Below are positions 3,768 to 53,361 of a stretch of 64,000 bases of DNA, piece by piece. Source of the stretch: Aeromonas tecta (GTDB taxonomy: Bacteria; Pseudomonadota; Gammaproteobacteria; Enterobacterales; Aeromonadaceae); assembly GCF_000820185.1 (NCBI RefSeq), contig NZ_CDCA01000020.1:250011-314010 (forward strand). The letters run 5' to 3'. Within the stretch, counting starts at the first letter, position 1; every line of letters begins with the position of its first letter. A model generated the notes under the pieces. The model had not been told where the DNA came from, ran no database searches, and worked only from the letters and a program-made list of their open reading frames with translations. The translations under genes and the position numbers were made by a program.

Positions 3768-5501
3768 ATGTCCGCGCGCCCAGAGTTTGCCACTCACCAT
3801 GCCACCTTCAACCACGTCTGGTCCTCCCTGCTGCTGGAGGAGCTCTATCGCCTCGGCGTGCGGGACATAGCGCTGGCCTCCGGCTCCCGCTCGGCGCCCC
3901 TCACCATGGCCGCCGCCGTCCACAGCGGCTTTTGCCGTCACCTGCATTTTGACGAGCGGGGCCTGGGCTTCATGGCACTCGGCCTCGCCAAGGGCACGGG
4001 CCGACCGGTGGCGGTGATCATGACCTCGGGTACCGCGGTGGCAAACCTCTGGCCCGCGGTGGCCGAGGCCCAGCTGACCGGGGTGCCGCTCATCATCCTC
4101 TCGGCCGACCGCCCCCCGGAGCTTATTGACAACGGCGCCAACCAGGCCATCGATCAGCAAGGGATCTTCGGTCACTACCCCGTCTATCAGCTCAATCTGC
4201 CGAGCCCCACCCAGACCATTCCCGCCGCCTTCGTGCTGAGCTCGGTGGATCAGGCCCTGGCCCAGCAGGCGCGCACTCCCGGCCCAGTGCATTTCAACTG
4301 CATGTACCCCGAGCCGCTCTACCCCGGTGATGCCTATCTGGATTTCGGCGACTACCTGGCGCCCCTCGGCGACTGGCTGTGCTCGGAGAAGCCCTGGAGC
4401 CCTTGGCTCCCGAGCGAACAGAGCTGCCCCATCCAGCCCGACTGGGAAGCACTGCGGGGCAAGCGCGGCGTCATAGTCGCGGGCCGCATCCAGGATCCGG
4501 TGCAGGGCCAGACGGTGGCCGAACTGGCACAGCGCCTCGGCTGGCCATTGCTGGCGGATCTGCAGAGCCAGATCCGCTTTGACAGTCGCAACCTCATTCA
4601 TATGGATTTGGCGCTGCAAAACAGCTGCTTCGTGAGTGAGCTGGCCCGCGCCGAGGTGCTGCTGCAGTTCGGTGCCCGCCTCATCTCCAAGCGGCTCGGC
4701 CAGTTTATCAAGCAGCACCCCTGGCAGGATTACTGGCTGGTGGATCCGCAGCCGGCCCGGCTCGACCCGGATTACCGGCTGCGTCGCCGCCTGCTGTGCG
4801 AGCCCGTCGCCTTCACCGCCGCCCACCCGGTTGGCGAGCAGCAGCAACCCTGGCACAAGCTGGCGGAACGCCAGCAACAGGCGACCCGTCAGGTGCGCGC
4901 CGCCTGCGATCGTTTCTCCGAACTCGGGGTCTGCCACCGCCTGAACGAGCTGATTGAAGGTCAGCTGTTTGTCGGCAACAGCATGCCGGCCCGCTTGATG
5001 GACATGCTCGGCGAGACCGGCAAGGGGCCAAGCCGGGTGATGACCAATCGCGGCGCCTCCGGTATCGATGGCCTGATCGCCACGGCCTATGGCTTTGCTC
5101 AGTCAAGCGATCAGCCCACCACCCTGCTGCTCGGGGATCTCAGTGCCCTGCATGACCTCAACAGCCTGGCTCTGCTCGGCAAGGCGAGTCGGCCGCTGGT
5201 AGTTATGCTGCTTAACAACGACGGTGGCAGCATCTTTCGCATGTTGCCGGTGCCGACCCAGGATCAGCTGCTGGAGACTTACTACTGCCTGCCCCACGGC
5301 CTGCACTTCGATCACGCCGCCGCCATGTTTGGCCTCGCCTATCACGCGCCCACCACCCTGGCCGAGTTCGAGCAGGTCTATACAGCCGCCTTGGAAGACC
5401 AAAGCTCGCAAACCCGAGCAACCCTGATTGAAATCAAGGTGCCGAGCAATGAAGTGGCCGAGGATCTCAAAGCATTGGGTAGTGCGATCCGTGGCAACTA
5501 G
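3768..5501 (+). CDS. menD: SEPHCHC synthase MenD (ThDP-dependent)
   Basis: Catalyses decarboxylation of 2-oxoglutarate and its addition to isochorismate, giving SEPHCHC; needs thiamine diphosphate and Mg. At 577 residues it is full length. Visible features: N-terminal [13 protein letters not shown] and [15 protein letters not shown], the [15 protein letters not shown] segment with the conserved Glu, and the C-terminal ThDP motif from [12 protein letters not shown] to [13 protein letters not shown]. Start ATG 3768 with GAGAG upstream. The stop TAG (5499-5501) overlaps a GTG at 5491 that looks like a menH start. The product's last 24 codons recur in diverged form just downstream (5524-5601), so this 3' end belongs to one of two versions present at the junction. 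Confidence 0.95.
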
Positions 5502-5601
5502 CGCAGAGGCAAACATCATCCCGATTGAAATCAAGGTTCCACATCACGACGAAGTGGCTAAGGATCTCAAAGCATTGGGCAGCGCGATCCGTGACCTCTA
5601 A
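5491..5601 (+). pseudogene. Junction scar: menH 5' stub fused to a second menD 3' end
   Basis: The GTG at 5491 overlaps the menD stop exactly where menH would start. It reads [11 protein letters not shown] and then runs in frame into IEIKVPHHDEVAKDLKALG and SAIRDL, ending at TAA 5599-5601. That second part is a diverged copy of the MenD C-terminus ([18 protein letters not shown] then SAIRGN). Of the single-base codon differences between the two menD tails, five are synonymous (GTG/GTT, CCG/CCA, GCC/GCT, GGT/GGC, AGT/AGC) and two are not. The real menH starts at GTG 5591 inside the second tail, at the same relative position as the stub's GTG in the first. The 36-codon frame is probably not a functional gene. 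Confidence 0.8.
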
Positions 5602-6364
5602 TCCAGGCGACTACAAGCTGCCGCTGGTGCTGCTGCACGGCCTGCTCGGCGATGGCCGCGACTGGCAGCCGGTCATCGATGCCCTACCAGGAGTCGACTG
5701 CCACGCACTGGATCTGCCGGGCCACGGTCACAACCAGCCTCTGCGGGTGAGCGATTTCGACGAGGCCAACGAATGGCTCTGTGGCGAGCTTGAGTCGCGC
5801 GGCATCCGCCGCTACCGGCTGGTGGGCTACTCCCTCGGTGGGCGGCTGGCGCTCTATCACGCCAGCCACTCCCCTGCCGGGTTGCAGGCCCTGCTGCTGG
5901 AGAACTGCCATCCGGGCCTGCCCGCCGCCGAGCGCGCGGCCCGCATCGCCCACGATGAGGGTTGGGCCCGGCGCTTCGAGGGCGAGCCCTTGACCGAGGT
6001 GCTGGCAGACTGGTACCGCCAACCGGTGTTTGCGGATCTCGACGCCGCCGGACGGGCCCGCCAGATAAGGCGCCGGCTCGGCAATCAGGGTCAGGCAGTG
6101 GCCGCCATGCTGCGCGCCACCTCCCTTGGCAAACAGCCGGATCTCGCCCCCTGGCTTGCGTCCGCGCCCTTGCCGGTGACCTGGATCTCCGGCACGGAGG
6201 ATCAAAAATTCCATCGGCTGGCTTGCCAGCTGGTAAAGTTGGGCTGCAATATCAATCACTTGACCATGAATGGCGGCCACAATCTGCACGCCAGCCAGCC
6301 CGAGACTTTTGCCCGGCTCCTGCGGGAGTGGGTTAACCAACCAGAAGAGAAGCTCCATGATTGA
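5591..6364 (+). CDS. menH: SHCHC synthase MenH (alpha/beta hydrolase)
   Basis: Eliminates pyruvate from SEPHCHC to give SHCHC in the cytosol. The 257-residue product has the alpha/beta-hydrolase signature: oxyanion segment [14 protein letters not shown], nucleophile elbow [13 protein letters not shown], late Asp in SGTEDQKFH and catalytic His in [11 protein letters not shown]. The start chosen is GTG 5591 ([15 protein letters not shown]), which sits in the ATCCGTGAC context overlapping the vestigial menD end. A frame open from 5525 would add residues that are only the menD remnant read out of frame. Its 3' end overlaps menB by 8 bp. Confidence 0.9.
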
Positions 6365-7217
6365 AGCAATGAGCGAAGCCGAACTGTATGCACCCATCGA
6401 GTGGCAGGATTGCTCCGCCGGTTACGAGGACATCCTCTATCACAAGTCCCAGGATGGCATTGCCAAGATCACCATCAACCGTCCCCAGGTGCGCAACGCC
6501 TTCCGTCCCCGCACCGTCAAAGAGATGCTGCAGGCGCTGGCCGATGCCCGTTACGACGATCATATCGGCACCATCATCCTCACCGGCTTCGGCGAGAAGG
6601 CGTTCTGCGCCGGTGGCGACCAGAAGATCCGGGGCGACTACGGTGGATATCAGGATGACGAAGGCACCCATCACCTCAACGTGCTCGACTTCCAGCGCGA
6701 CATCCGCACCTGCCCCAAACCGGTCGTCGCCATGGTGGCCGGTTATGCGGTCGGCGGCGGCCATGTGCTGCACATGATGTGTGACCTGACGATTGCGGCC
6801 GACAACGCCCAGTTCGGCCAGACCGGTCCGAAAGTCGGCTCCTTCGACGGCGGCTGGGGCGCCTCCTACATGGCCCGTATCGTCGGCCAGAAGAAGGCCC
6901 GCGAGATCTGGTTCCTGTGCCGCATGTACGATGCCAACCAAGCCCTCGACATGGGGCTGGTCAACACCGTGGTGCCCTTGGCGGAGCTCGAGCGCGAGAC
7001 TGTGCGCTGGTGCCGCGAGATGCTGCAAAACAGCCCGATGGCGCTGCGTTGCCTGAAGGCGGCCCTCAACGCCGACTGCGACGGCCAGGCCGGCTTGCAG
7101 GAGCTGGCGGGCAATGCCACCATGCTGTTCTACATGACCGAAGAGGGTCAGGAAGGGCGCAACGCGTTCAACGAGAAACGCCGTCCCGACTTCTCCAAAT
7201 ACAAACGGAACCCCTGA
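6357..7217 (+). CDS. menB: 1,4-dihydroxy-2-naphthoyl-CoA synthase MenB
   Basis: Crotonase-fold enzyme closing the second ring of OSB-CoA to DHNA-CoA. The 286-residue product has [15 protein letters not shown], the oxyanion-hole region [18 protein letters not shown], and [20 protein letters not shown] with the [19 protein letters not shown] loop typical of MenB. The ATG at 6357 gives [10 protein letters not shown]; an alternative ATG at 6369 lacks a ribosome site. The start overlaps the menH stop in the string CATGATTGA, implying translational coupling. The stop TGA overlaps the menC ATG (TGATGA). Confidence 0.95.
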
Positions 7218-8146
7218 TGACACTCGCCCTCTATCGCTACCATCTGCCCTTTACCCAGCCTCTGACCTTTCACGGCAAGGTGGAGGTAGCGCGAGAGGGC
7301 CTGCTGGTGCGCATCAACGACGGCTGGGGGGAAATCGCCCCCCTGCCCGGTTTCTCCAAGGAAACCCTGGCCGAAGCCCAGAGCGAGGCACTTGCTTGCC
7401 TGACGCAGCTGGCCAAGGGAGAGACCATCAGCCCTCAGCTGCCTTCGGTACAATTTGGCGTCGACTGTGCTCGTCGCCATTGGCCCGCCCAGACAGCCTC
7501 CCTGCCCGAGCCCTATCCCCTCATTCAGGGCTCCCCCCAGGAGCTGCTCAAGAATTGGAAAGTCTGGCTGCACGAGACGCCCCTCAAGGCCAAGCTCAAG
7601 GTGGCCCGCTACCCCATGCGTGACGAGCTGGCGCTGATCCGCCTGCTGCTCGACCGACGCCCGACCCTCAAGCTGGTGCTGGATGCGAACCAGGGCTGGA
7701 CCCGCGAGGAGGCCTGGGCCTTCTGCGGTCACCTGGATCCGAACCGGATCGAATACCTGGAAGATCTCTGCGCCAGCTTCGACGACATCGCCTTCGTGGC
7801 CGCCCGCACCAATATGCCGGTGGCGCTGGATGAGCTGCTGAGCCGGGGCGATCCCTGGCAGCCCATCCCTCAGCTCAAGGCGCTGGTGCTCAAACCCATG
7901 CTGCTCGGCAGCCTCGCCAACAGCGAGGCGCTGGTGGCCCGCGCCCGTGAGCTGAAGCTCAAAGTGATCGTCTCCTCCTGCTTCGAGTCCGGTGTCGGCC
8001 TCGGCCAGCTCGCCCGTCTCGCCGGCGAATGGGCGCCGGACCAGGCCCCGGGCCTGGACACCAAGCGCTGGCTGGCGGGGGATCTACTGGATGCCCAGGG
8101 CCAGCCCGACTTGAGCAAACTCAAGCCTCTGTTCCACCGTGATTGA
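7217..8146 (+). CDS. menC: o-succinylbenzoate synthase MenC
   Basis: Enolase-superfamily dehydratase making o-succinylbenzoate from SHCHC. The 309-residue product shows the catalytic Lys motif (LKAKLKVAR), metal ligands in VLDANQGWTREE, EYLEDLC and ALDELL, and the second Lys in ALVLKPMLLGS. The ATG at 7217 overlaps the menB stop by one base. A frame open further upstream is only a shadow of menB. Its end overlaps the menE start by 8 bp in the string CGTGATTGA, almost the same junction as menH/menB. Confidence 0.94.
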   Translation: MTLALYRYHLPFTQPLTFHGKVEVAREGLLVRINDGWGEIAPLPGFSKETLAEAQSEALACLTQLAKGETISPQLPSVQFGVDCARRHWPAQTASLPEPYPLIQGSPQELLKNWKVWLHETPLKAKLKVARYPMRDELALIRLLLDRRPTLKLVLDANQGWTREEAWAFCGHLDPNRIEYLEDLCASFDDIAFVAARTNMPVALDELLSRGDPWQPIPQLKALVLKPMLLGSLANSEALVARARELKLKVIVSSCFESGVGLGQLARLAGEWAPDQAPGLDTKRWLAGDLLDAQGQPDLSKLKPLFHRD

Positions 8147-9551
8147 GGCCCAGTCGCCCCAGATCGAGCAGAGCAGCGAGCCTTGCCCGGTGCGCCACTG
8201 GGCAAACCTGGCGCCGGAGCGGATCGCCATCCACGGCGACAACGCCCTCAGCTACCGACAACTGGACGCGCGGCTTAACGCCCTGTGTCGACAGCTTGAA
8301 TCTGCTGGTTTGAACACGGGTGACAGGTTGGCCGCCGTGGTGCGTGGCGCGCAGGCAGATGTATTGATTGCCTGGGCTTGTGTGCGCAGCGGTATCGTCT
8401 TCTGCCCGCTTAATCCCGCCTTCCCCTTGGAAAAACAAGCAGAGCTGGCCGCCCAGCTAGAGGTTGCCGCCTTCTGGTCGGCGGGAGAGATCCCGGACGG
8501 CCCTTGGCAACCCCTGCGACTGGATACCGAGGCCGAGCTGGCTGCGGGCCATGATCTGCTGGCGCTGGATCCCGAGCGGCTGTGCAACATGATCCTCACC
8601 TCGGGATCGAGCGGCACCCCCAAGGCGGTGGTGCATCGCCTCGCTAATCATCTGGCCTCGGCCCGGGGCTCCGCCACTCTGATCCCGCTGGACGGCGACT
8701 GTGGCTGGCTGCTCTCCTTGCCGCTGTTTCACGTCGGCGGCTACGCCATCCTGTTCCGGGTCTTCCTGGCCGGCGCCAGCCTGGTGCTGGACGATCGCAG
8801 CCAACCCCTCGGCACGCGACTGACACAAGCGCCCATCACCCACCTATCCTTGGTGCCGACCCAGCTCTGGCGCCTGCTGGCCCAGGGCTTCGACCCCGCC
8901 AACACCCGGCTGCGCGAACTGCTGCTCGGCGGCGCCGCCATCCCCGAGCCCCTGGTGAGCCGTCTCAAGACGCTGGGCATCACTCCCAAGGTGAGCTATG
9001 GCCTGTCCGAGATGGGCAGCCAGGTCTGCACCGGCCAGCCCACCGGCGCCGGAGTGGTCGGCCGGCCGCTGCCGGGGCGAGAGGTATGCATCCGCCAGGG
9101 GGAGATCTGCGTGCGGGGCGCCACCCTGTTTGCCGGCTACTTCAAGGGCGGCCAGCTGGAGCGGCCACTCGATGAAGAAGGCTGGTTCCACACCCGCGAC
9201 AAGGGGCACGTCACCGAGCGCGGCGAGCTGGTGGTGGAGGGACGGCTCGACAACCTCTTCATCTCCGGCGGCGAGAACATCCAGCCGGAGACCATAGAGC
9301 AGCGGCTGGTGGATCACCCCGCCGTGGCCCAGGCGCTGGTGGTGCCCATCCCGAGCGACGAGTGGGGCCAGCGCCCCGCCGCCTTTATCGACTGGCACGG
9401 CGAGCCCGTCTCCCATGCCGAGCTGAGTGCCTGGATCCGGCAGTCACTGCCCGGCTTCATGGTGCCGGACCGCTGGCTGTCCTGGCCGGATCTTGGCGGC
9501 AGCCTCAAGCCCTCCCGCACCAGACTCGCCACCTTGGCTGCCTCGGCCTGA
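8139..9551 (+). CDS. menE: o-succinylbenzoate--CoA ligase MenE
   Basis: ANL-superfamily adenylating enzyme that activates OSB with ATP and CoA. The 470-residue product contains the P-loop-like AMP motif MILTSGSSGTPKAVVH, the SYGLSEMGSQVCTG segment, GWFHTRDKGHV with the hinge Asp, and LFISGGENIQPETIEQ. The start is GTG 8139, overlapping the menC stop, so it is probably translated by coupling. Last gene of the men run; a hairpin with a T tract follows about 85 bp downstream. Confidence 0.94.
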   Translation: MIEAQSPQIEQSSEPCPVRHWANLAPERIAIHGDNALSYRQLDARLNALCRQLESAGLNTGDRLAAVVRGAQADVLIAWACVRSGIVFCPLNPAFPLEKQAELAAQLEVAAFWSAGEIPDGPWQPLRLDTEAELAAGHDLLALDPERLCNMILTSGSSGTPKAVVHRLANHLASARGSATLIPLDGDCGWLLSLPLFHVGGYAILFRVFLAGASLVLDDRSQPLGTRLTQAPITHLSLVPTQLWRLLAQGFDPANTRLRELLLGGAAIPEPLVSRLKTLGITPKVSYGLSEMGSQVCTGQPTGAGVVGRPLPGREVCIRQGEICVRGATLFAGYFKGGQLERPLDEEGWFHTRDKGHVTERGELVVEGRLDNLFISGGENIQPETIEQRLVDHPAVAQALVVPIPSDEWGQRPAAFIDWHGEPVSHAELSAWIRQSLPGFMVPDRWLSWPDLGGSLKPSRTRLATLAASA

Positions 9552-9634
9552 ACCCCCTCCTATTCGACTATCCTGTCCACGACACCTTAATCTGATACTT
9601 GCCCCCCATATGGGGCTGAGTCCTTGCTATCGGT

Positions 9635-9660
9635 ACGGCCCCTAATGGGGCTGCTTTTGT
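9635..9660 (+). terminator. Terminator after menE
   Basis: GGCCCC-TAAT-GGGGCT stem-loop followed by GCTTTTG. A second short hairpin (GCCCC..GGGGC) sits at 9601-9616. The two together would end the men transcript before the collagenase gene. Confidence 0.7.
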
Positions 9661-9775
9661 TATGTTGCATGAGAAGGGAATGATTGCCCCGCCCCATCTG
9701 GTTTGTTGATGTTCCTTTGGAACCCAATACCCTGCCCGGTTCCCCCACGCCACTCCATCCACCAAAGGGATCACA

Positions 9776-12520: not shown

Positions 12521-12537
12521 GGATGAGGCATTGATCG

Positions 12538-12569
12538 ACAGGGGCAGCCATGGCTGCCCCTGTTTTTTT
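12538..12569 (+). terminator. Terminator after the collagenase gene
   Basis: AGGGGCAGCC/GGCTGCCCCT stem (12540-12561) with an AT centre, followed by G and seven T. A strong Rho-independent signal. Confidence 0.9.
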
Positions 12570-12716
12570 CGCGCAAAGGATGAACAGAAATCGCCCCGCC
12601 CACGACAGTCTCTGCCCGAGTGACACCACTGCCGGCTATCAAGCCTGACGCCAACCGCCAACTTGTAATAGAATGGCCCCCTGTCATCCCTTACTTCAGA
12701 CCCGAACGCACCGCGC

Positions 12717-13691
12717 ATGAAGAAGTTTGCCAAGATCCTGCTCGCCTGCCTCTGCCTGTTGCTGGCCTCTGCCGCTACGCTGCTGGGCTACAGCGAGTGG
12801 ACCGTCTCGGACGCCCGTCACTACACCTATGACGACGTCGATGCGGTGCCCTATAACCGGGTCGCCCTGGTGCTCGGCACCTCCAAATACCTGATCGGCG
12901 GTAGCCCGAACCACTATTTCAAGTACCGGATCAAGGCCGCCGCCGAGCTCTACAACAGCGGCAAGGTGGACTACATCCTGGTCTCCGGTGACAACGCCAC
13001 CGTGCAATACAACGAGCCACGCCAGATGCGGCGAGCCCTGATCCAGGCCGGCATCCCGGCCAACGCCATCTACAGCGACTACGCCGGTTTCCGTACCCTG
13101 GACTCCGTAGTGCGCGCCAAGGAAGTGTTCGGCCAGGCCCGCTTCACCGTGGTTTCCCAGGCGTTTCACAACGAGCGCGCCATCTTCATCGCCCGCCATT
13201 TCGGCATCGACGCGGTCGGCTACAACGCACTGGATCCCAGCGCCTATCAAGGTATCCGCACCCGGGTACGCGAGGTGTTTGCCCGGCTGATGGGGCTGCT
13301 CGATCTCTATGTACTGGACAAGGGCCCCAAGTTCCTCGGTGAGCCCATCGTCATCGGTGGCCCTATCCCCTGCCAGGCGCTGAGCAGCATAGGCACCAGC
13401 CAACCCTGCCTGCCCATTCCCCCCGTGGTGCCGGTGAAAAAGCCGCTCGATAAGGCCAGCGTAACCAATACGGCTGTGGCAATCAGCGCAGCAACGGCAA
13501 CCAGTGCAGCAACGGTAACCAGCGCAGCAACGGCAACCAGTGCAGCAACGGCAACCAGCGCGGCAACGGCAACCAGTGCAGCAACGGCAACCAGCGCGGC
13601 AGCGACAACCAGCGCAGCAACGGCAACCAGCACGGCAACGGCAACCAGCGCGGCAGCGGTAACCAGCGCGGCAACGGCAACCGCCCCCTGA
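12717..13691 (+). CDS. SanA/YdcF-type DUF218 protein with Ala/Thr repeat tail
   Basis: Single N-terminal membrane anchor (residues 5-24) followed by a DUF218 domain: VALVLGTSKYLIGGSPN, KVDYILVSGDN, DYAGFRTLDSVVRAKEVF and FTVVSQAFHNERAIFIA. These match SanA, an inner-membrane protein linked to envelope barrier function (vancomycin sensitivity) in E. coli. The family domain ends near residue 235. After a Pro/Lys linker the last ~70 residues are eleven six-residue units of the AATATS type, encoded by 18-bp tandem repeats. The E. coli protein lacks such a tail. Start ATG 12717. A bidirectional terminator separates it from sodA. Confidence 0.85.
   Translation: MKKFAKILLACLCLLLASAATLLGYSEWTVSDARHYTYDDVDAVPYNRVALVLGTSKYLIGGSPNHYFKYRIKAAAELYNSGKVDYILVSGDNATVQYNEPRQMRRALIQAGIPANAIYSDYAGFRTLDSVVRAKEVFGQARFTVVSQAFHNERAIFIARHFGIDAVGYNALDPSAYQGIRTRVREVFARLMGLLDLYVLDKGPKFLGEPIVIGGPIPCQALSSIGTSQPCLPIPPVVPVKKPLDKASVTNTAVAISAATATSAATVTSAATATSAATATSAATATSAATATSAAATTSAATATSTATATSAAAVTSAATATAP
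13487..13684 (+). repeat. 18-bp tandem repeat within coding sequence (about 11 copies)
   Basis: The unit is close to GCAGCAACGGCAACCAGC; copies differ mainly by G/A at the third base and a few GTA or ACA variants. Each unit codes Ala-Ala-Thr-Ala-Thr-Ser or a near relative. The length is a multiple of three, so copy-number change would keep the frame. Confidence 0.9.
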
Positions 13692-13700
13692 ACAGACAGA

Positions 13701-13734
13701 AACAAGAGACCCGCCTGATGGCGGGTCTCTTGTT
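13701..13734. terminator. Bidirectional terminator between sanA-like and sodA
   Basis: AACAAGAGACCCGCC-TGAT-GGCGGGTCTCTTGTT is a near-perfect stem that ends both convergent genes. Confidence 0.9.
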
Positions 13735-13757
13735 TGATGGGTCGAGCAAGGTGGTAC

Positions 13758-14372: not shown

Positions 14373-14393
14373 GTTCGTCTCTCTTATTGGGGA

Positions 14394-14873: not shown

Positions 14874-14883
14874 GGCTTTAACA

Positions 14884-14919
14884 CTCAAATGATAATAATT
14901 ATTATTTAACTTATTTGAG
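14884..14919 (-). promoter_or_regulatory. Fur box upstream of the TPR gene-sodA pair
   Basis: TGATAATAATTATTA (14890-14904) matches the 7-1-7 Fur consensus TGATAATnATTATCA at all but one position. It is flanked by an additional inverted repeat CTCAAAT (14884-14890) and ATTTGAG (14913-14919). The AT-rich block stands out in a GC-rich genome. Confidence 0.85.
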
Positions 14920-15098
14920 GGGGGGAACACAAGGGATAGTTCAACGGCGGGCTCCTGCCCATATGGGTAGTGTTTTATCGCAATGGCCGGTTTAGTGATC
15001 GCATCCACAGATACATTCGAGTGCGGATACCATGCTGACAGTACTGGCATGACGCCGGTGGCTGCTCCTCGGCAGCCTTGCACACAAGGATGATCACA

Positions 15099-41545: not shown

Positions 41546-41647
41546 AACCGCTCGAGTGTGCATGGGCGCCGCAGTTTGACTGTCACTCGATGTTTTGACT
41601 GACACACAAGCAGGTAACTCAAGGCGCTTGCGCGCAGCCCCGAACAG

Positions 41648-41690: not shown

Positions 41691-41729
41691 AAAGCGGTTC
41701 ACTCGGATGCAATGAGAACGGAGCCCTGT

Positions 41730-43602: not shown

Positions 43603-43627
43603 GGGAGCTCCTTTCGCAGGCCGTCAC

Positions 43628-43660
43628 CCCCTCCCTGCGGCGGTATCACGCCGGGAGGGG
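43628..43660. promoter_or_regulatory. Long GC-rich dyad in the hlyD/DUF342 divergent region
   Basis: CCCCTCCC..TGCGGCG-GTAT-CACGCCG..GGGAGGGG forms a long imperfect stem. It lies 26 bp upstream of the hlyD ATG and 212 bp before the DUF342 start. Lack of a T run makes it more likely an operator or leader hairpin than a terminator. Confidence 0.4.
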
Positions 43661-43871
43661 ATGCAATTGATATAGCTATCGCCAGCATACCCATTGTCAC
43701 GCAGGATTTCCTCAATCCAGCTCACCCATTTGTATTCAGCTCGTTGACCCGGAAGGAGAAATGTCCGAATACTGCAAACCAGAGCTGCCAAGATGGCATC
43801 GGCTTTTGGTGGGGGTTTCGCCCCGTCATCCGCAAGGGCAAGCCGGTTCGAGACAACGAAGGAGGATCCCG

Positions 43872-45560: not shown

Positions 45561-45642
45561 CGCGTGATCCCGGCGGCGATTTTCGCTACACTCGGCCTCC
45601 CCTTGGCCCCATAGGGCGGGCCAGCCAGAGTCAGGTAGTGAG

Positions 45643-46455
45643 ATGATGTACAAGCTGATTGCATTGGATATGGATGGCACCCTGTTGACCCCGCAAGGCC
45701 AGATCACCCCGCGTACCCACGCCGCTATTTCGGCCGCCCGCGCCAAGGGAGTCACCGTGGTGTTGACCTCGGGCCGACCACTGGAGGGCATGACCGCCTA
45801 CCTGGCCGAACTCGGCCTCACCGGCCCGGATGACTACGTCATCTGCTACAACGGCGCCCTGGTGCAGCGCGTGGCGGATCAGCACATCATCCGCAGCCAG
45901 CTGCTGACCGGCCGCGATGCCAGCGCCATCGCCCACCTGGCCGACGAGCTGGGGGTGAACGTACACGGCTTCTCCGTGCGCCAGGGCCTCATCAGCCCCA
46001 AGGTCAGCCGCTATACCGAGCACGAATCCGAGCTGGTAGACATGCCCATCAACCTGGTGGACTTCGCCACCCTGCCAAGCGACGAGCGGATCATGAAGGT
46101 GATGATGATCGATGAGGAGCCCCTGCTCTCCCGCACCATCGCCCAGTTGCCCGCCGAGCTTTATGAGCGCTATACCGTAGTGCGCAGCTCCCCCTATTTC
46201 CTCGAATTCATGAACAAGCTGAGCAACAAGGGCACCGGCGTCGCCGCCTTGGCCGAGCACCTTGGCATCACCGCAGATGAGGTGATCGCCGTGGGGGATG
46301 CTGGTAACGATCGTCACATGATCGAATACGCCGGACTCGGGGTCGCCATGGGCAACGCCACCGACGAGATCAAGCAGCTGGCGCAGCACACCACCAGTCG
46401 CAACGACGACGAGGGTGTGGCCAGGGTGATCGAGCAGTTCGTGCTCAATGCCTGA
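45643..46455 (+). CDS. yidA: HAD-type sugar phosphatase YidA
   Basis: 270 residues, Cof-type HAD. Motif I LIALDMDGTLLTPQG, motif II VVLTSGRPLEGM, motif III Lys in IMKVMMIDEEPLLSRTIAQL, motif IV GVAALAEHLGITADEVIAVGD with DAGNDRHMIEYAGLGVAMGN. It is close to E. coli YidA over the length (CYNGALVQ, ESELVDMPINLVDFA). It removes phosphate from sugar phosphates. Two in-frame ATGs (45643, 45646) are equally likely starts; AGGT is upstream. Confidence 0.92.
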   Translation: MMYKLIALDMDGTLLTPQGQITPRTHAAISAARAKGVTVVLTSGRPLEGMTAYLAELGLTGPDDYVICYNGALVQRVADQHIIRSQLLTGRDASAIAHLADELGVNVHGFSVRQGLISPKVSRYTEHESELVDMPINLVDFATLPSDERIMKVMMIDEEPLLSRTIAQLPAELYERYTVVRSSPYFLEFMNKLSNKGTGVAALAEHLGITADEVIAVGDAGNDRHMIEYAGLGVAMGNATDEIKQLAQHTTSRNDDEGVARVIEQFVLNA

Positions 46456-46460
46456 TCCCC

Positions 46461-46490
46461 GCGGGGCACCTCAGGGTGCCCCGCATGTTT
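46461..46490 (+). terminator. Terminator after yidA
   Basis: GCGGGGCACC-TCAG-GGTGCCCCGC perfect 10-bp stem followed by ATGTTT. Weak T tract. Confidence 0.65.
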
Positions 46491-46823
46491 CACCACAGAA
46501 TCTGCATGTTTAATATATCCACCACGATTCCCCGCCCAATCTGCCCCTCTCCCTGCTCAGGCCCCTGATACTGGGACTCAAGCTAGCTCAGCCACCATCA
46601 AAATTAACATAAACGCATCATTTCGTTTGACATATTGAACGGCCTTGGCAGACTGGGATCAGGATCCAGGCTGTCACTGCCCCGGCTGACCGACGATTCT
46701 GGTACTGCGGCGTGACCCGGATCCCATGACCATGCCTTGAGGCATGCCCTTGCTGCTCAGCCGCGGCAAGGGCCTTCCCAAGGCGCAGGATGAGACACCA
46801 GACAAGGATAGCCAAGGTGACCT
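46491..46823. other. Intergenic region, no gene seen
   Basis: 333 bp. A TTGACA (46627-46632) could be a -35 for the downstream hydrolase, but the expected -10 position is poor. A short repeat of TTGAGGCATGCCC type near 46735 is not a strong hairpin. Nothing else could be supported. Confidence 0.4.
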
Positions 46824-47588
46824 ATGCCAAGTACCCATACCAAACCCGTCGTGCTGATGACCATGGGGGCCCAGCCCCGTAACGGCCATCCCTACCAGGT
46901 CATGACCCACAAATACATCACCCCCCTGGTGGAGATCAGCGGCTGCGTGCCCTTGCTGGTGCCGACCTGCTGCGGCGCCGAGGATCTGGAGCAATATCTG
47001 GACCTGGCCGATGGCGTCTACCTGAGCGGCGCCGGATCCAACATAGATCCCGCCCTCTACGGCCAGGAGAACCTGACCCCGGAGAAGACCCAGGACAGAG
47101 ACAGGGACTTGTTCGATATCCCACTGGTGCGCGCCGCCATCGACAGGGGGCTGCCGCTGCTCGGCATCTGCCGCGGCATGCAGGAGATCAACGTGGCCCT
47201 CGGCGGCGACATTCATCAGAAGGTCTATAACGAACCCGGCTATGCGGATCACAGAGAGGATGCGGACGATCCGGTGGAAGATCAGTATGGTCACAGCCAT
47301 CAGGTCAGCCTGGTGCCCGGCAGCTGGTTTGCCGAGCTGATGGGGCAGGAGCAGATCCCGGTCAACTCCTTGCACGGTCAGGGGATCAAGACGCTGGCCA
47401 AGGGGTTGGCACCACTGGCCTATGCCGAAGATGGTTTGATCGAGGCCATTTATGCCCCCGAGCTGCCCCAGTTCACCCTGGCGGTACAGTGGCATCCGGA
47501 GTGGAAGGCGAGCGAAAACCCCCACTCCATCAAGCTGTTCGAAGCCTTCGGTGCCGCCTGTCGCGAGCGCCGCATGCAGGCGAGCTAG
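46824..47588 (+). CDS. Class-I amidotransferase-type hydrolase (PuuD-like)
   Basis: 254 residues. The catalytic triad is in LLGICRGMQEINVALGGDIH (Cys), AVQWHPEWKASENPH (His-Glu), the peptidase C26 layout of PuuD gamma-glutamyl-GABA hydrolase. DGVYLSGAGSNIDPALYG and TQDRDRDLFDIPLVRAAIDR precede the elbow. The substrate is probably a gamma-glutamyl compound; no other puu gene is near. ATG 46824 with AAGGTGA upstream. The last four bases overlap the stop of the convergent 47.6-kb gene. Confidence 0.87.
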   Translation: MPSTHTKPVVLMTMGAQPRNGHPYQVMTHKYITPLVEISGCVPLLVPTCCGAEDLEQYLDLADGVYLSGAGSNIDPALYGQENLTPEKTQDRDRDLFDIPLVRAAIDRGLPLLGICRGMQEINVALGGDIHQKVYNEPGYADHREDADDPVEDQYGHSHQVSLVPGSWFAELMGQEQIPVNSLHGQGIKTLAKGLAPLAYAEDGLIEAIYAPELPQFTLAVQWHPEWKASENPHSIKLFEAFGAACRERRMQAS

Positions 47589-47998
47589 TCGCCCAAGCCC
47601 TTACCCTTCAGTTTGGGCAGCGCCCCGCGCTCGGGGCGCAAGGTCCGGCAGACATCCATCCCCTTGAGGCCCCGCTGGACGTGATCCGGGGTCTCGCCAA
47701 GCACCATGCCATTGCCGCGATACAACTTGGCATCCTCCAGCTCGAACAGCTCACCACCGATCAACAGTTGCTTGCGATCATTGACCACCTTGCCCCGTTT
47801 CAGGGGCAGGGTCATGTCCACTAGGATCTCGCCGGTGGCGCAGCCCTCACGCCAGCGCGCCTCATCCGAGAAGGGAGAGATTGCGATCTCGCGCCAGGAT
47901 CCGTCCCGAAACTCCATCCGATAGCTGTCGCTCAGCAGATCGCAGCCCGTCAGGGCGATGGGGATAATCAACCAGATGATTTTCTTCAATAAACGCAA
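47585..47998 (-). CDS. Small lipoprotein of unknown function
   Basis: 137 residues. The N-terminus RLLKKIIWLIIPIALTGCDL is a lipoprotein signal with lipobox ALTGC. The body is mixed alpha/beta (YRMEFRDGSWREIAISPFSD, CATGEILVDMTLPLKRGKVV, DRKQLLIGGELFELEDAKLY) with two further Cys. Not recognised. Start TTG 47998 was chosen because AAGGGAG lies eight bases upstream and it gives a clean signal; a longer frame to 48028 also starts at TTG and has no ribosome site. Convergent and 4 bp overlapping with the hydrolase gene. Confidence 0.65.
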   Translation of the reverse strand: MRLLKKIIWLIIPIALTGCDLLSDSYRMEFRDGSWREIAISPFSDEARWREGCATGEILVDMTLPLKRGKVVNDRKQLLIGGELFELEDAKLYRGNGMVLGETPDHVQRGLKGMDVCRTLRPERGALPKLKGKGLGD

Positions 47999-48170
47999 AC
48001 CTTGCACTCCCTTGTCAGCCCGGGCCAAGGATAAAGAAAATCCCCTTTCATCGCATCTGTTTACCCAGCTTCTACTTAGCCGACCCAGGGCGGCGAACAG
48101 AGGATGGCGAGAGCCGGTGCCGATGCCGATGCGCTAGCATGGGCACCTCCCCCTTTTGCGAGACCACATT

Positions 48171-48569
48171 ATGTTACTGATGGCCATGGCCCTCGGCGCC
48201 AGCCTGCAATTTGACTGCCCGCCCCAGATAGAGAGCAGGCAGCAACTGCTGAGCACAGCCGCAGGTTGGCAGGGAGTGAGTCGGGACTTGCATGGTCAGC
48301 CGAGCGAGCGCCTGAGCCACAGACTCGACAATCTCGCCCTGTTCGATGGGGATCCCGCCGAGCTGGCGCAGCTCAAACCGGACAACGGTGACAGCAGCGA
48401 GACCCACTACTGGAGCCTGGACGGAGGCAATGTCCGCCCCTTCTACCTGGTTTGTCACTATCAAGACAGCGCCATCACACTGCAACAGGCGCTGCCCTCA
48501 GGCATCAGCTATTGCCGAGTCAATGAGGCCAGCCCCCATGAGTTGATCGGACTGATCTGCCGCAAATAA
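48171..48569 (+). CDS. Secreted hypothetical protein (STY0301-like)
   Basis: 132 residues. A short signal-like start (MLLMAMALGASLQFDCPPQI) leads to a mature part with Cys near residue 16, Cys at 98 and 117 and a terminal Cys, consistent with two disulfides. The pattern C-P-x-x-I then W-x-G-V with FYLVCHYQDSAITLQQALP and SGISYCRVNEASPHEL looks like the STY0301 family, from memory only. Function unknown. ATG 48171 was taken; a TTG five codons earlier is less likely. It is convergent with yigB, whose stop is 17 bp away. Confidence 0.6.
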   Translation: MLLMAMALGASLQFDCPPQIESRQQLLSTAAGWQGVSRDLHGQPSERLSHRLDNLALFDGDPAELAQLKPDNGDSSETHYWSLDGGNVRPFYLVCHYQDSAITLQQALPSGISYCRVNEASPHELIGLICRK

Positions 48570-48585
48570 CGCAGCAGCAGCGCCC

Positions 48586-49296
48586 TCAGAGCAGCAGTTC
48601 GGCCAGCTCGCTTAAGCTGTACAGCTCCACATCCGGCAGCTGCTGCAAGGATGACCAGGGCGCCCCATGCTCGTTGAGCCAGGCGGCCCGAAAACCGTGC
48701 AGCCTGGCCCCCAGCACATCGCTCTCTGGGTGATCTCCCACGTGCAGTATTTGGTTGGCGGGTAGCTTGAGGGCAGCCTGCGTCTGCAGGAACATGTCCG
48801 GGGCCGGCTTCATCCTAGCCCCCGCTCCGGCCTTGCAGACCAGGGTGAAATAGTCGCTCAACCCGGCCTGTACCAGATCCAGGTTGCCGTTGGTGATCAC
48901 CACCAGCGGGTAGCGCGCGGCGAGGCGTGCCAGCAGGGCATGGGTCGCCGTGCTCACCTCGATGTTTGAACGCTCGGCCAGGAAGGCGGCAAACACCCGC
49001 TCGGCCTCGTGTTCGGCCTGCACCATCGCCATCCCCCCCTGCACCAGGGCCTCGCGGATGCCATATTGGCGCGCCAGGCTGACGTCGTGGCGCAGTTCAG
49101 GATGTGCAAGCAGCAGGTCGCGTTTGAGGGCAAGCCAGCGCGGTTTGTCCAGCATAGCGGTGGCCAGAAATTCGCTGCGCAGATGGCTCAGCATCCACTG
49201 CTCGGCGCGCGCAATGGCGGGGCCGTTGTCATAGAGGGTGTCGTCGAGATCGAACGAGATGGCGGCCACCGGCTGCCAACGACGATAAAACTGCAT
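48586..49296 (-). CDS. yigB: HAD phosphatase YigB (riboflavin pathway)
   Basis: 236 residues. HAD motif I AAISFDLDDTLYDNGPAI, motif II VVITNGNLDLVQAG, motif III/IV KPAPDMFLQTQAAL and LHVGDHPESDVLGARLHGFR. It matches E. coli YigB (MRFYRP..FDLDDTLYDN), which dephosphorylates 5-amino-6-(5-phosphoribitylamino)uracil. It is last in lptM-lysA-dapF-DUF484-xerC-yigB. ATG 49296 with GAGAGG upstream. Its first codons (MQFYRRWQP) recur in variant form (MPLYRCRLL) right after xerC, see the scar at 49334-49432. Confidence 0.9.
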   Translation of the reverse strand: MQFYRRWQPVAAISFDLDDTLYDNGPAIARAEQWMLSHLRSEFLATAMLDKPRWLALKRDLLLAHPELRHDVSLARQYGIREALVQGGMAMVQAEHEAERVFAAFLAERSNIEVSTATHALLARLAARYPLVVITNGNLDLVQAGLSDYFTLVCKAGAGARMKPAPDMFLQTQAALKLPANQILHVGDHPESDVLGARLHGFRAAWLNEHGAPWSSLQQLPDVELYSLSELAELLL

Positions 49297-49333
49297 TGTC
49301 TCTCCTCTCGCTTATATCAGGCGCGGGCCCGCT

Positions 49334-49432
49334 TCACTCATCTTCTGGGGTGGCGGGATCTCGCTTGGCCCTGGCGAATTGGACGCTGTCATACCCATTG
49401 CCAGATAGCAGCCTGCAACGATAAAGGGGCAT
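49334..49432 (-). pseudogene. Junction scar: yigB 5' stub fused to a second xerC 3' end
   Basis: The xerC stop overlaps an ATG (TGATG) that reads MPLYRCRLL, resembling the YigB start MQFYRRWQP (both have TTTATCGT). Within about nine codons the sequence switches to a diverged copy of the xerC end: YDSVQFARAKRDPATPEDE then TGA (49336-49334), against [18 protein letters not shown] in the real gene. Synonymous differences include AGT/AGC, AGA/AGG, GCA/GCC, CGG/CGA and GAG/GAA. The intact yigB follows 37 bp later. Confidence 0.8.
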
Positions 49433-50412
49433 CACGCATCCTCTGGATCTGTGGTATCCCGCTTTGCTCTGGGGTGGGCACTGTCATAGACCTTGGCCAG
49501 ATGCTGGAAATCCAGGTGGGTATAGATCTGGGTGGTGGAGAGATCCGCGTGGCCCAGCAGCTCCTGCACCGCCCGCAGATCGCCGGAACTCTCCAGCATG
49601 TGGGTGGCGAAGCTGTGGCGCAGCTTGTGGGGATGCACGTGGGCATTGAGCGCCTGCTTGTTGCCCCAGCCATCGAGCCGCTCCTGCACGGATCGGGCCG
49701 ACAACCGCTGCTTGCGTTTGGAAACGAACAGCGCTAGCGCCTCATCCCCCGCCAGCAGGGGTCTCACTTTAAGCCACTTTTGCAGCCACTCCACCGCCAT
49801 CCGCCCCATGGGCAGCACCCGCTCCCGGGAGCCCTTGCCGGTCACCTTGAGCTGCCGCTCGTCGAGCTTGATGTCCGTGAGGTTGAGCCCCACCAGCTCG
49901 GCCAGACGAAGGCCGGAGGAGTACATCAGCTCCATGATGGCGCGATCCCGCACCGCCAGCGGATCCTGCTCATCGGTGATGTTGAGCAGCTGATACATCT
50001 CGTCCACGTCGAGGTTCTTGGGCAGGGGTCGCCCCTGTTTGGGGGTCACTATGCCACGGGCCGGGTTGGCCACCAGCCGCCCCTGGCGCACCTGCCAGTC
50101 GCAGAAACTGCGCAGGGCCGAGACCTTGGTGGCCAGCGATCGAGGGGCAAGCCCCGCCTTGTGCATCCGGGTCACCAGGCTGCGTACCTGAGTCGCCTCG
50201 AGCCTGGCCCAGTCGCGCAAGCCGAGGCGCACCAGCTCGGCGGCCATGGCCTGCAGGTGCGCCTCGTAGTTGCTGCGGGTGTGCGGGCTGAGTTGGCGCT
50301 CGACGCGCAGGTATTCGATAAAGGCCGTCAACTCGTCAGCCAGCGCGGCCGGCAGGGGTTCGGCGGCAGGCGGCTGCGCCTTGGTGGGTGATCTGGCTGG
50401 CGCCTTAGCCAC
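49432..50412 (-). CDS. xerC: Tyrosine recombinase XerC
   Basis: 326 residues. With XerD it resolves chromosome dimers at dif. Catalytic residues are visible: Arg in [12 protein letters not shown], Lys in [12 protein letters not shown], His-x-x-Arg in [13 protein letters not shown], second His in [17 protein letters not shown] and the Tyr nucleophile in [13 protein letters not shown]. The N-terminal core-binding domain ([20 protein letters not shown]) is preceded by ~25 Ala/Pro/Lys-rich residues, longer than E. coli XerC (298). Start GTG 50412 overlaps the DUF484 stop by 8 bp. Its 3' end is duplicated downstream (49334-49405). Confidence 0.94.
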
Positions 50413-51085
50413 GGGCCAGCTCGGGCAGACGCAGTTGCAGCAGACGGCCGAGCTGACCCAGCAGCAGGGTGTCGTTGTGAGGGGCGAAGTGACTGGGATC
50501 CGAGCTGGCGAAGGCCAGCACGCCGAGATCGCCGAGTCGCATCAGGGCCACGGAGTTGACCAGCACATCATTGCCAAACAGCGCCTGTTTCTCGCTCTGG
50601 TTGAGCCGGCCGAAGTAGTAATCCGTCCCCGGCAGACGCTGACCCAGCAGTTGATCGAGTTGTTTGCCGTCCGCGAGGAAACGCTGCTCCGGACCGCTGA
50701 GCTGAAATTTCTTTGGATTGAGCCAGAGCCGCAGCTCGGTCAGTCGCAGCCGCTGCACGAAGGCCTTGCCCATGGCCACGCTCAGCTCGAACAGCGTCTG
50801 GCAGCCGTAGATCTCGCCATAGAGATCGGCGTAGACCCGGAAGATCCGCTCATTCTCGCTGGCGATCCCCATCAGTTCGGTGATCTCCTGCTCCAGCTGC
50901 TCGATGCGCTCGCGCTGCCGATCCATCTGCCGCTCCACCAGGGAAACTGAACCCTTGCGCTCATGGGGAATGCGGATCCGGTCCAGCATGGCCGCGTGGC
51001 GCTGGAAAAACTCGGGATAACGGGCCAGGTACTCCAGCACAGTGGCTTCGTCCACCAGTTGCTCCTGCCGTTTGAGTTCGCTCAT
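50405..51085 (-). CDS. DUF484 family protein
   Basis: 226 residues. A GAF-like family always found between dapF and xerC in gammaproteobacteria. [40 protein letters not shown] (coiled coil) and [20 protein letters not shown] show the conserved pattern. Biochemical function unknown. ATG 51085. It overlaps xerC by 8 bp. Between dapF and this gene are 79 bp containing a short hairpin with T tract (AGGGC..GCCCTTTTT, 51102-51120 on the minus strand), perhaps a weak attenuator. Confidence 0.85.
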
Positions 51086-51164
51086 AACTTGGTTGGTCCA
51101 TCATAGAAAAAGGGCACAGGGCCCTGACATTATCGTTGTGCAGAGGGGGCAAGGCCCCCAATAC

Positions 51165-51995
51165 TTATAGCTCTATCTGGCCATCGAACACGTGCTCGGC
51201 GGGTCCTGTCATGTAGACCGGCTGGCCCGGCCCCTTCCAGGCGATGGTCAGCGTGCCACCCGGCAGGCTGACGGTAACCCGCTCCTTGAGCTTGCCCTGG
51301 CTGATGCCGATCACCGCCGCCGCGCAGGCGCCGGTGCCGCAGGCCAGGGTCTCGCCCACCCCGCGCTCGAACACCCTCAGACGGATTTCGGTGGCGTTGA
51401 CCATCTCCATGAAGCCGACGTTGACCCGCTCCGGGAAACGCTCGTGTCGCTCCAGGATGGGCCCCAGGGTCAATACAGGGGCATCGTCCACCGAGGGTAC
51501 CTCGATGACGCAGTGTGGGTTGCCCATGGAGACGACGCCACACATCACAGTGTGTTCCTGCGCCCGCAGCAGATAGGTTTTCTCCGCCTTCTGGGCCCGA
51601 AATGGCACCTTGCCCGGTTCAAACTGGGGCACCCCCATGTTGACCGTCACCTGGTTTTCACCCTCAAGCTGCAGGGTGATGCGGCCACGGGCCGTGCTGA
51701 CCGAGATGCGATCCCGGTTGACCAGTCCCTTCAGCCGCACGAAACGGGCGAAACAGCGCGCGCCGTTGCCACACTGCTCCACCTCGCTGCCGTCGGCATT
51801 GAAGATGCGATAGTGAAAGTCGAGTTCGGGATCATAGGGTGGTTCCACCAGCAGCAGCTGATCGAAGCCGATGCCAAAGTGGCGATCCGCCAGCTTCTTG
51901 ATGACATCATTGCTGAAGAACACCTTCTGGGTGACACCGTCCACCACCATGAAGTCATTGCCCAGCCCATGCATCTTGGAAAAATCTATCAACAT
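51165..51995 (-). CDS. dapF: Diaminopimelate epimerase DapF
   Basis: 276 residues. Interconverts LL- and meso-diaminopimelate for lysine and peptidoglycan. The two catalytic Cys are in [15 protein letters not shown] and [16 protein letters not shown]; the start [19 protein letters not shown] is the family signature. ATG 51995. It is preceded by a stub with a different dapF start (MLEFSR) and by a second lysA 3' end, see the scar at 51996-52103. Confidence 0.95.
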
Positions 51996-52103
51996 CCTGC
52001 GTTCCTGTACCCTTTGGGCAGTAAATGCTCACCACACCGGCGATAGGTCAACGGCTCACGCTCTCGACTCACTGGCGGAACGTCTGGAAAACTCCAACAT
52101 CAT
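51989..52103 (-). pseudogene. Junction scar: dapF 5' stub plus a second lysA 3' end
   Basis: After the lysA stop (52113-52111) comes ATG-ATG reading MMLEFSR, close to the common DapF start MLEFSK, against MLIDFSK in the intact gene. Then follows a diverged lysA end in another frame: [17 protein letters not shown] (52066-52017), against REREPLESLWQGEHLLP in LysA. It lacks a stop there and runs on to TGA 51991-51989, which overlaps the intact dapF start (ATGTTGA). CGG/CGA, CTG/TTG, GGC/GGT and CTA/TTA are synonymous differences. Confidence 0.8.
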
Positions 52104-52110
52104 CCGGCTC

Positions 52111-53361
52111 TCAGGGCAGTAGATGCTCGCCCTGCCAGAGTGATTCCAGCGGCTCACGCTCCCGAATGAGGAATGCCTTGTCGCCGTCCACCAGCACCTC
52201 GGCGGCGCGGGGGCGGGTGTTGTAGTTGGAAGACATGGTGAAGCCATAGGCACCGGCGGAGCGTACCGCCAGCAGGGAGCCCTCAGCGATAGCCAGGCTG
52301 CGCTCCTTGCCGAGGAAGTCACCGGTCTCGCACACCGGTCCCACCACATCGTAGAGCGCCTTCTCATGGGTCGTGTTGTTATCCACCTCGATGATGTTCA
52401 TCCAGGCGCCATAGAGAGAGGGGCGCAGCAGATCGTTCATGCCGGCGTCGATCAGGGCGAAGTTGCGGGTCTCACCGGGTTTGAGGTATTCCACCCGGGT
52501 CAGCAGCACGCCGGCGTTGGCGACGATGGCACGGCCCGGCTCGAACAGCAGGGTCAGCTTGCGGCCAGCCAGCTTCTGCTTGAGCGCCTCGGCATACTCG
52601 GTGGGATGCGGTGGCTGCTCGGCGCCATAATTGACCCCGAGGCCACCGCCCACGTCCAGGTGATGGATATGAATGCCTTCGGCCGCCAGCTCGTCGATCA
52701 GCCGCAGCAGCTTGTCCGCCGCCTCCATAAAGGGATTCAATTCAGTGAGCTGGGAGCCGATGTGGCAATCCACCCCCTTGATCTCGATGTGGGCCATGGC
52801 CGCGGCCTTGCGGTAGATGGCGGGGGCCTGCTCGATGGGAATGCCGAACTTGTTCTGCTTGAGGCCGGTTGAGATGTAGGGATGGGTGCCGGCATCGATG
52901 TCGGGATTGACCCGCACCGAGACCCGCGCGGTTTTGCCCATGCTGCCCGCCACCCGGTTCAGGCGATCCAGCTCGGCTTCGGACTCCAGGTTGAAACAGA
53001 AGATCTCTTTTTCCAGCGCGAGGCGCATCTCGGCCTCGCTCTTGGCCACACCGGAGAAGACCACCTTGGCCGGATCACCGCCCGCCGCCAATACCCGCGA
53101 CAGCTCCCCGCCGGAGACGATGTCAAAGCCCGAGCCCAGACGGGCCAGCAGGTTGAGCAGTGCCAGGTTGGAGTTGGCCTTGACCGCATAGCAGATCAGA
53201 TGGGGGATATCGCCGGCCGCCTGATCGAAGGCGTGCCAGTGACGCTCCAGGGTGGCGCGGGAGTAGACATAGAGCGGTGTGCCGTATTGTTCGGCGAGCT
53301 GTTGCAGCAACAGCTGCTCGGCCTGCAGTTGGCCGTCGGCGTCGTAGTTAAAGTGATCCAA
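52111..53361 (-). CDS. lysA: Diaminopimelate decarboxylase LysA
   Basis: 416 residues, PLP-dependent, last step of lysine synthesis. The PLP lysine is in LICYAVKANSNLALLNLLA; other marks are GFDIVSGGELSRVLAAG, VRVNPDIDAGTHPYISTG, IHHLDVGGGLGVNYG, EPGRAIVANAGVLL and GPVCETGDFLGKERSLAI (active-site Cys). Start TTG 53361 has AAGGA eight bases upstream; the longer open frame reads Arg/Pro-rich sequence from the LptM gene region and is not real. The last 17 codons recur downstream in diverged form. Confidence 0.94.
   Translation of the reverse strand: MDHFNYDADGQLQAEQLLLQQLAEQYGTPLYVYSRATLERHWHAFDQAAGDIPHLICYAVKANSNLALLNLLARLGSGFDIVSGGELSRVLAAGGDPAKVVFSGVAKSEAEMRLALEKEIFCFNLESEAELDRLNRVAGSMGKTARVSVRVNPDIDAGTHPYISTGLKQNKFGIPIEQAPAIYRKAAAMAHIEIKGVDCHIGSQLTELNPFMEAADKLLRLIDELAAEGIHIHHLDVGGGLGVNYGAEQPPHPTEYAEALKQKLAGRKLTLLFEPGRAIVANAGVLLTRVEYLKPGETRNFALIDAGMNDLLRPSLYGAWMNIIEVDNNTTHEKALYDVVGPVCETGDFLGKERSLAIAEGSLLAVRSAGAYGFTMSSNYNTRPRAAEVLVDGDKAFLIREREPLESLWQGEHLLP

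Follow-up and report, generated by a model that had tools for sequence, protein, structure and literature searches.

We examined a stretch of 64,000 nucleotides (nt) of the Aeromonas tecta genome (hereafter the window; G000:C21:250011-314010, part of a 4.75 Mb genome) and confirmed that three of its gene junctions, menD/menH, lysA/dapF, and xerC/yigB, carry a duplicated tail of the upstream gene together with a start like that of the downstream gene. In all three spacers the opening resembles the downstream gene; a second, diverged copy of the upstream tail follows it. We call this arrangement a unit, and the short open reading frame (ORF) inside it a mini-ORF. The three junctions belong to a class that occurs across Aeromonas and is restricted to the genus within our samples. 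We consider it probable that Aeromonas has a genus-wide tendency to duplicate gene ends, and that in-frame copies are retained where they relay translational coupling.

Duplicated gene ends at three junctions of the window

A preliminary description of this DNA had pointed to three junction scars of one kind, and all three are present, above anything seen in the null: tail-DNA scores over real gene pairs were 51.5, 26.5, and 30 for menD/menH, lysA/dapF, and xerC/yigB, respectively, and the maximum among 1111 shuffled pairs was 16.5. In a cruder scan, in which the tails of all window ORFs were compared with the downstream sequence in translation, menD/menH ranked first (score 78), lysA/dapF reached 54 and xerC/yigB 46, and spurious antisense ORFs ranked between menD/menH and the other two. 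Plain self-comparison of the window gave the menD tail repeat (5451-5501 repeated at 5551-5600, in-window E 1.6e-12) as the strongest short-range repeat after a tandem array of 18-nt period at 13418-13705.

The coordinates are collected in Table 1. The menD/menH mini-ORF starts with a GTG at 5491, overlapping the menD stop by 11 nt, and its end crosses the true menH GTG at 5591. The GTG of the xerC/yigB mini-ORF overlaps the xerC stop by 4 nt and the ORF ends 37 nt short of yigB; the lysA/dapF scar offers no in-frame relay at present, with a stop after 15 codons. An ORF that overlaps or adjoins both the flanking stop and the flanking start is found in the window at menD/menH alone, on the upstream side only at xerC/yigB, and on neither side at lysA/dapF. 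The tail peptides pair as REREPLESLWQGEHLLP and a 17-residue counterpart at lysA/dapF, and as a 17-residue stretch and YDSVQFARAKRDPATPED at xerC/yigB. The boundaries had been described as tightly spaced and coupled, which fits the deepest genomes of the genus, where the junctions measure -8 to +16 nt, whereas the present spacers in the window measure 89-135 nt. The last two scars share one operon, lysA-dapF-DUF484-xerC-yigB, and the gene order around xerC/yigB matches the Escherichia coli dapF-yigA-xerC-yigB cluster.

Table 1. Genes, tail copies, and mini-ORFs at the three duplicated junctions (positions in the window)
Feature	Position	Strand	Description
menD, upstream gene of scar 1	3768..5501	+	ORF; TPP_enzyme_M_2 / TPP_enzyme_N matches
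menD tail copy 1, inside gene	5451..5501	+	direct repeat D2, period 100
menD/menH mini-ORF, 36 codons	5491..5601	+	menH-like GTG start fused in frame to second menD tail
menD tail copy 2	5551..5601	+	86% over 50 nt versus copy 1
menH, downstream gene of scar 1	5591..6364	+	Abhydrolase matches
lysA, upstream gene of scar 2	52111..53478	-	Orn_Arg_deC_N match; start possibly 53361
lysA tail copy 1	52114..52165	-	direct repeat D3
dapF-like start ATGATGTTGGAGTTTTCC	52056..52103	-	open for just 15 codons
lysA tail copy 2	52016..52067	-	73% versus copy 1; out of frame with dapF-like start
dapF	51165..51995	-	DAP_epimerase match; start 51995
xerC, upstream gene of scar 3	49432..50412	-	Phage_integrase match
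xerC tail copy 1	49429..49502	-	pairwise alignment
xerC/yigB mini-ORF, 33 codons	49334..49435	-	yigB-like start fused in frame to second xerC tail
xerC tail copy 2, one codon more	49331..49406	-	pairwise alignment
yigB (HAD hydrolase)	48586..49296	-	HAD matches; start 49296

Frequency in Aeromonas and in control genomes

Genes were called with a simple codon-usage caller, and in co-directional pairs with spacers of 40-450 nt we sought a copy of the upstream tail or of the downstream head. On the 447-kb contig of the window (about a tenth of genome G000) 15/140 spacers carried strong repeats, the window's three among them, compared to 0/1111 shuffled pairs. A 400-kb sample of genome G010 gave 12/112 positive spacers (shuffled pairs 1/890), the G018 sample (G018:C33) gave 6/112 (shuffled pairs 2/890), and a smaller sample of G009 gave 2/26. 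Three scars in one window had been taken as the sign of a recurrent process, and the wider scan, with its many further cases, bears this out. Seven genus samples together contain 35/489 positive spacers, and named Aeromonas dapF loci add 5/53, with 0.69 expected from the null. Outside the genus no spacer was positive among 129 of E. coli K-12, 59 of a sister genus, and 49 of another family of the order; the dapF loci of other Aeromonadaceae gave 0/31 and those of other families 1/257 (1.0 expected). Pooled counts are 40/542 in the genus (35/489 plus 5/53, from partly shared genomes; adjoining G000 and G018 stretches overlap by 500 bases) and 1/525 outside, with a Fisher P of ∼2e-11 that treats as independent loci that are partly dependent and come from differing genomes. 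By extrapolation, a genome would hold about 100 or more such units.

Over the same sequences, a blind search for tandem repeats (period 55-160) found 51 in the 1.23 Mb that came from three genus genomes: 22 at co-directional junctions (including the window's 18-nt array), 5 inside genes, and 24 elsewhere, the last made up of 13 with a gene 3′ end, 3 with a 5′ end, 4 without a called gene, and 4 tRNA arrays. Among the controls, E. coli (450 kb) had 6 repeats, of which 2 lie inside genes and 1 is a tRNA array; the sister genus (200 kb) had a single tRNA repeat. Outside gene interiors, and with the 18-nt array (13463-13682 of the window), the four genus tRNA arrays, and the two control tRNA arrays set aside, there are 41 repeats in 1.23 Mb of the genus versus 3 in 650 kb of the two control genomes. 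Gene interiors show no genus excess (5 in 1.23 Mb versus 2 in 450 kb of E. coli). Repeats of period ∼100 also lie at gene 3′ ends that face convergent or unrelated neighbours (L072-L130), and a process limited to coupled junctions is ruled out by them. We concluded that the genus has more duplications of this sort at gene ends generally, and that coupled junctions are one class of these.

Units as head-to-tail duplications of unit-less alleles

For each junction up to 30 loci were read from 37 genomes, and some further genomes were read later. Eighteen unit-bearing combinations of genome and junction (artQ/artM, cpdA/yqiA, nudF/yqiB, pilM/pilN, and menD/menH) were each compared with two unit-less alleles, and the score of a duplication model beat all 60 shuffled-spacer versions in 36/36 comparisons (z 6.3 to 20.5). 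This shuffled-spacer null was added alongside a comparison with linear alignment, in which the margin for duplication is partly built in, since a linear gap cost on the insertion favours it. A unit-bearing allele appears to be the unit-less allele in which a junction-spanning segment has been repeated in head-to-tail order. Among the best-preserved repeats, the youngest of which hardly differ from the resident sequence beside them, identity is 97% over 106 nt at nudF/yqiB of G027, 98.5% over 68 nt at lysA/dapF of G014, 95% over about 150 nt at menD/menH of G005 and G010 (153 nt in G010), and 92.5% over 226 nt at lysA/dapF of G025. At artQ/artM of G018 the sequence TCAGCCTG is present at the breakpoint in both the tail of the upstream gene (A) and the head of the downstream gene (B).

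An ungapped repeat diagonal was obtained for 28/33 matches of the three larger samples (none at the window's xerC/yigB), with a median period of 100 nt and a range of 57-155 (n=28). The period equals 2 modulo 3 in 19/28 (P=0.0002), or in 16/23 when five periods are removed as second copies of a boundary (P=0.0004). This is the period that lets the head copy read in frame into the tail copy at -4, -1, and +2 junctions; for the 11-nt overlap of menD/menH the expectation is 1 modulo 3, with which the observed period of 100 agrees.

Tail copies of menD, xerC, and pilM and head copies of dapF are one codon longer than the parent (for example, window 5522-5600; L093; L046), the L096 unit, behind a fabG-like gene, has two extra codons, and the L126 unit has fewer. 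The shared whole-codon insertion was weighed as a mechanistic signature. Some of the xerC/yigB spacers L032, L033, L058, and L059 contain cccttctcc...ggagaaggg, like ordinary intergenic inverted-repeat elements, beside the unit.

Open frames of the mini-ORFs

In the chain test we looked for ORFs that connect the upstream stop with the downstream start in an unbroken chain and compared the result with shuffled spacers (the menH start of G010 was reset). At five tight junctions the chain is intact in 37/37 unit-bearing spacers (menD/menH 5, pilM/pilN 8, artQ/artM 7, cpdA/yqiA 4, nudF/yqiB 13), when ∼12.2 were expected; this set leaves out nudF/yqiB of G022 and G025, which contain N, and the later-read nudF/yqiB of G011 (chain intact) and pilM/pilN of G025. 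At xerC/yigB 8/13 chains are intact versus 2.1 expected. On the G000 contig chains occur in 10/14 repeat-bearing spacers (4.4 expected) versus 15/93 other spacers (15.7 expected). The nudF/yqiB ORFs, of 19 to 38 codons and some of them barely alike, span from +1 to -11 or -16.

The ratio of nonsynonymous to synonymous differences (pN/pS) in the units is 0.55 at artQ/artM, 0.57 at pilM/pilN and at menD/menH, and 0.77 at nudF/yqiB (0.35 in five similar units), and the parent segments in the same genomes have ratios of 0.02-0.28. The synonymous bias ascribed to the scars in the preliminary description is present in weak form, far from that of the parents. An intact frame with loosely constrained amino acids is the pattern to be expected if selection acted to keep the frame open and not to preserve the peptide. 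According to PMC10666635, coupling in E. coli and Haloferax volcanii needs overlaps or very short distances, and a spacing of ∼20 nt nearly abolishes it.

Distribution and age of the units

Extra copies at menD/menH were found in 5/35 genomes read (G000, G002, G005, G010, and G023), units at artQ/artM in 7/30 (seven late stretches, L357-L363, not counted), at pilM/pilN in 8/30 plus G025 among 7 read later, and at cpdA/yqiA in 4/30 and 0/6 of those read later. On a tree of 36 genomes (ten genes) the presence of units is patchy. Even the close pair G023/G024, 97-99% identical in most bins, differs at menD/menH, artQ/artM, and cpdA/yqiA, and the scars are accordingly not fixed in the genus. In the deepest genomes, G009, G028, and G030, the menD/menH, lysA/dapF, xerC/yigB, cpdA/yqiA, nudF/yqiB, and pilM/pilN junctions are all tight, but at a different junction G009 itself bears a unit, of 28 codons with its ATG at -4 and its stop at +4. 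At nudF/yqiB (L160-L189) the likely yqiB start, as read from the sequence, varies: it is a GTG right after the nudF stop where there is no unit, and an upstream ATG (MPLVQSPMKRY..) where there is one.

The age of the units was gauged by comparing their pooled between-species divergence with the 4-fold divergence of the flanking genes A and B. The unit stands at 0.351 versus 0.349 and 0.349 at pilM/pilN, 0.336 versus 0.278 and 0.325 at cpdA/yqiA, 0.282 versus 0.288 and 0.183 at nudF/yqiB, 0.384 versus 0.239 and 0.275 at xerC/yigB, and 0.133 versus 0.231 and 0.279 at artQ/artM. Several pairs of units are too similar for the distance between their species (artQ/artM G024-G027 and G021-G026, 5/128 each; nudF/yqiB G003-G017, 4/107), and other pairs diverge more than their flanks. 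On these figures most units are old, and a few may have moved between species; no movement of units between loci was seen. In 52/68 comparisons the copy is closer to the gene of some other species than to the resident gene. From these matches and from the over-similar pairs, the older units would seem to be either trans-species or moved by short tracts.

Origin and retention of the units

The explanation we favour runs as follows. Tandem duplications of ∼100 nt that span a gene end would arise, or be tolerated, unusually often in Aeromonas at gene ends and spacers, presumably by short-homology slippage or unequal exchange. At a stop/start junction the repeated segment would take in A's tail and B's head, and the spacer would thereby turn into a short ORF in which the B start is joined to a second A tail. 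Tightly coupled junctions would retain mainly those duplications whose ORF is in frame from the A stop to the B start, and the mini-ORF would be translated as a relay, with termination-reinitiation carrying translation from A through the mini-ORF to B, where a gap of 100 nt would otherwise interrupt it. The loosely constrained peptide would drift, re-duplicate, and decay where B has its own start signals; loss of a unit would restore the tight junction and could account for the patchy distribution.

A number of observations weigh against this explanation. Repeats are kept at uncoupled gene ends, so that retention needs no relay; at lysA/dapF chains are intact in 6/29 spacers with 8.8 expected, that is, without excess; and the chain excess is small in G010 (4/9 versus 2.4) and G018 (2/5 versus 1.5), in a test that is itself permissive and draws on non-independent species. 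Samples of G030 (0/29), G028 (0/33), and G016 (0/37) had no positive spacer (0/99 together). As to birth by duplication, microhomology is clear at one junction only, the others being too diverged or weak, and the extra codon common to units at menD, xerC, pilM, and the dapF head is unaccounted for by plain duplication. At pilM/pilN it is the gene's own tail, rather than the last copy, that deviates. Finally, a best or tied-best match between the copy and the resident gene was obtained in just 16/68 comparisons, for which reason a simple recent local origin for all units was rejected as the whole story; this count fits old units and leaves room for imported copies as well.

Import was the process put forward in the preliminary description: in homology-facilitated illegitimate recombination with the DNA of relatives, the donor anchors in gene A and joins off register, and the donor tail and head come to precede the native tail. 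The foreign matches and the over-similar pairs described above agree with it, as does the pilM/pilN unit, whose last copy matches the tail of unit-less relatives, and merodiploids made by transformation are known at the 100-900 kb scale (PMC3784515). At nudF/yqiB of G003 and G017, however, the unit's head is like that of relatives and the gene's own head is deviant, the reverse of what import predicts, so that one of the two junctions speaks for a donor model and the other against it. Inspection of identity profiles by eye showed no donor tract at artQ/artM, cpdA/yqiA, menD/menH (G023/G024), or pilM/pilN; around the artQ/artM unit of G024 the flanks are 92-100% identical to unit-less G023 in 100-nt bins, with one end bin at 89%. 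The young repeats match resident sequence, and the extra codon of the units was found in 0/30 menD tails examined. We regard import as unlikely to be the general explanation. Two side observations concern these loci. Beside the artQ/artM unit (L230 versus L225, ∼1000-1600 of L230) the G024/G023 identity, otherwise 96-100%, dips mildly: it is 92-94% over ∼300 nt on the upstream side and 93% over 100 nt on the downstream side. The pilM tail itself ends with GGGAGGTGA(G/A)C(G/A)ATGA, Shine-Dalgarno-like ahead of the mini-ORF ATG, in 4/8 unit-bearing genomes (L190, L195, L196, and L203); three other unit-bearing pilM tails (L212, L213, and L215) share GATGATCAATGA, and the tails of unit-less genomes differ.

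The remaining explanations concern what keeps the units. The duplications could be ancient and have come down by vertical inheritance with many losses, their frames being under no selection and their intact ORFs reflecting chance or recency. Divergence close to that of the flanks at pilM/pilN, cpdA/yqiA, and nudF/yqiB (0.288 flank), patchiness that loss would produce, the chain result at lysA/dapF, and the repeats at uncoupled gene ends can all be read in this way; the 37/37 intact chains at the five tight junctions, the skew of the period modulo 3, and length changes at pilM/pilN (-6, -3, +9) that are whole codons cannot easily be, and we hold this account to be quite unlikely. That the mini-ORFs encode functional peptides is improbable: pN/pS is below 1 in all sets and 5/8 pilM/pilN units (G000, G003, G014, G019, and G035) share a MANKT...AGVEYL core, but the parent segments are constrained far more strongly, and at nudF/yqiB units of 19-38 amino acids with little likeness occupy the same coupled position. 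A dispersed mobile element of the mycobacterial interspersed repetitive unit (MIRU) kind, inserting at coupled junctions, would have the same architecture of a short ORF coupled to its neighbours, with tandem copies. Those units that were examined are similar to the genes on either side of them, and searches of the genome with each of the three window spacers found no second place, so a dispersed element was rejected for these scars and is hardly credible overall; the same searches speak against the loss of an element that had carried in its own gene ends, raised earlier as an alternative to import.

Gene-end duplication with retention of in-frame relays would have several implications. Operon junctions could lengthen while keeping translational coupling, and related species that have 0, 1, or 2 relays at one and the same junction would offer natural experiments on termination-reinitiation. 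Small ORFs would have a local route of birth, and some short ORFs between operon genes would be copies of the ends of their neighbours. Restriction to the genus within the samples makes the cause, whether mutational bias or tolerance, testable by comparison of strains. More tentatively, and with considerable doubt, one may picture an ongoing, genus-specific doubling of gene ends that mints in-frame chimeric mini-genes (∼100 per genome), which would act as translational relays, spread between species by very short tracts, and form a standing source of spacer DNA and small ORFs.

Comparison with known systems

A literature search of titles and abstract openings, with subscription journals poorly covered, found no description of comparable duplications at gene boundaries. 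In bacteria, short-homology tandem duplication yields head-to-tail repeats of adjacent sequence, and the Aeromonas repeats are likewise head to tail, the recent ones near-identical; they differ in being numerous within the genomes of a single genus, in lying mostly at gene ends or in spacers, and in their frame bias at junctions. MIRU copies are present at senX3-regX3 according to PMC4213456; MIRU is one dispersed, apparently mobile family, whereas the window's three units are unique in the genome and made of the ends of local genes. Homology-facilitated illegitimate recombination and merodiploidy are alike in that off-register joining can make tandem copies, but the transformation-induced merodiploids of PMC3784515 measure ∼100-900 kb and the Aeromonas units ∼100 nt, with no donor tract visible by eye. 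The likeness to termination-reinitiation coupling lies in the stop and start codons, which at five junctions overlap or lie close together on either side of the unit; the difference is that here the duplicated junction would add an extra ORF to the chain.

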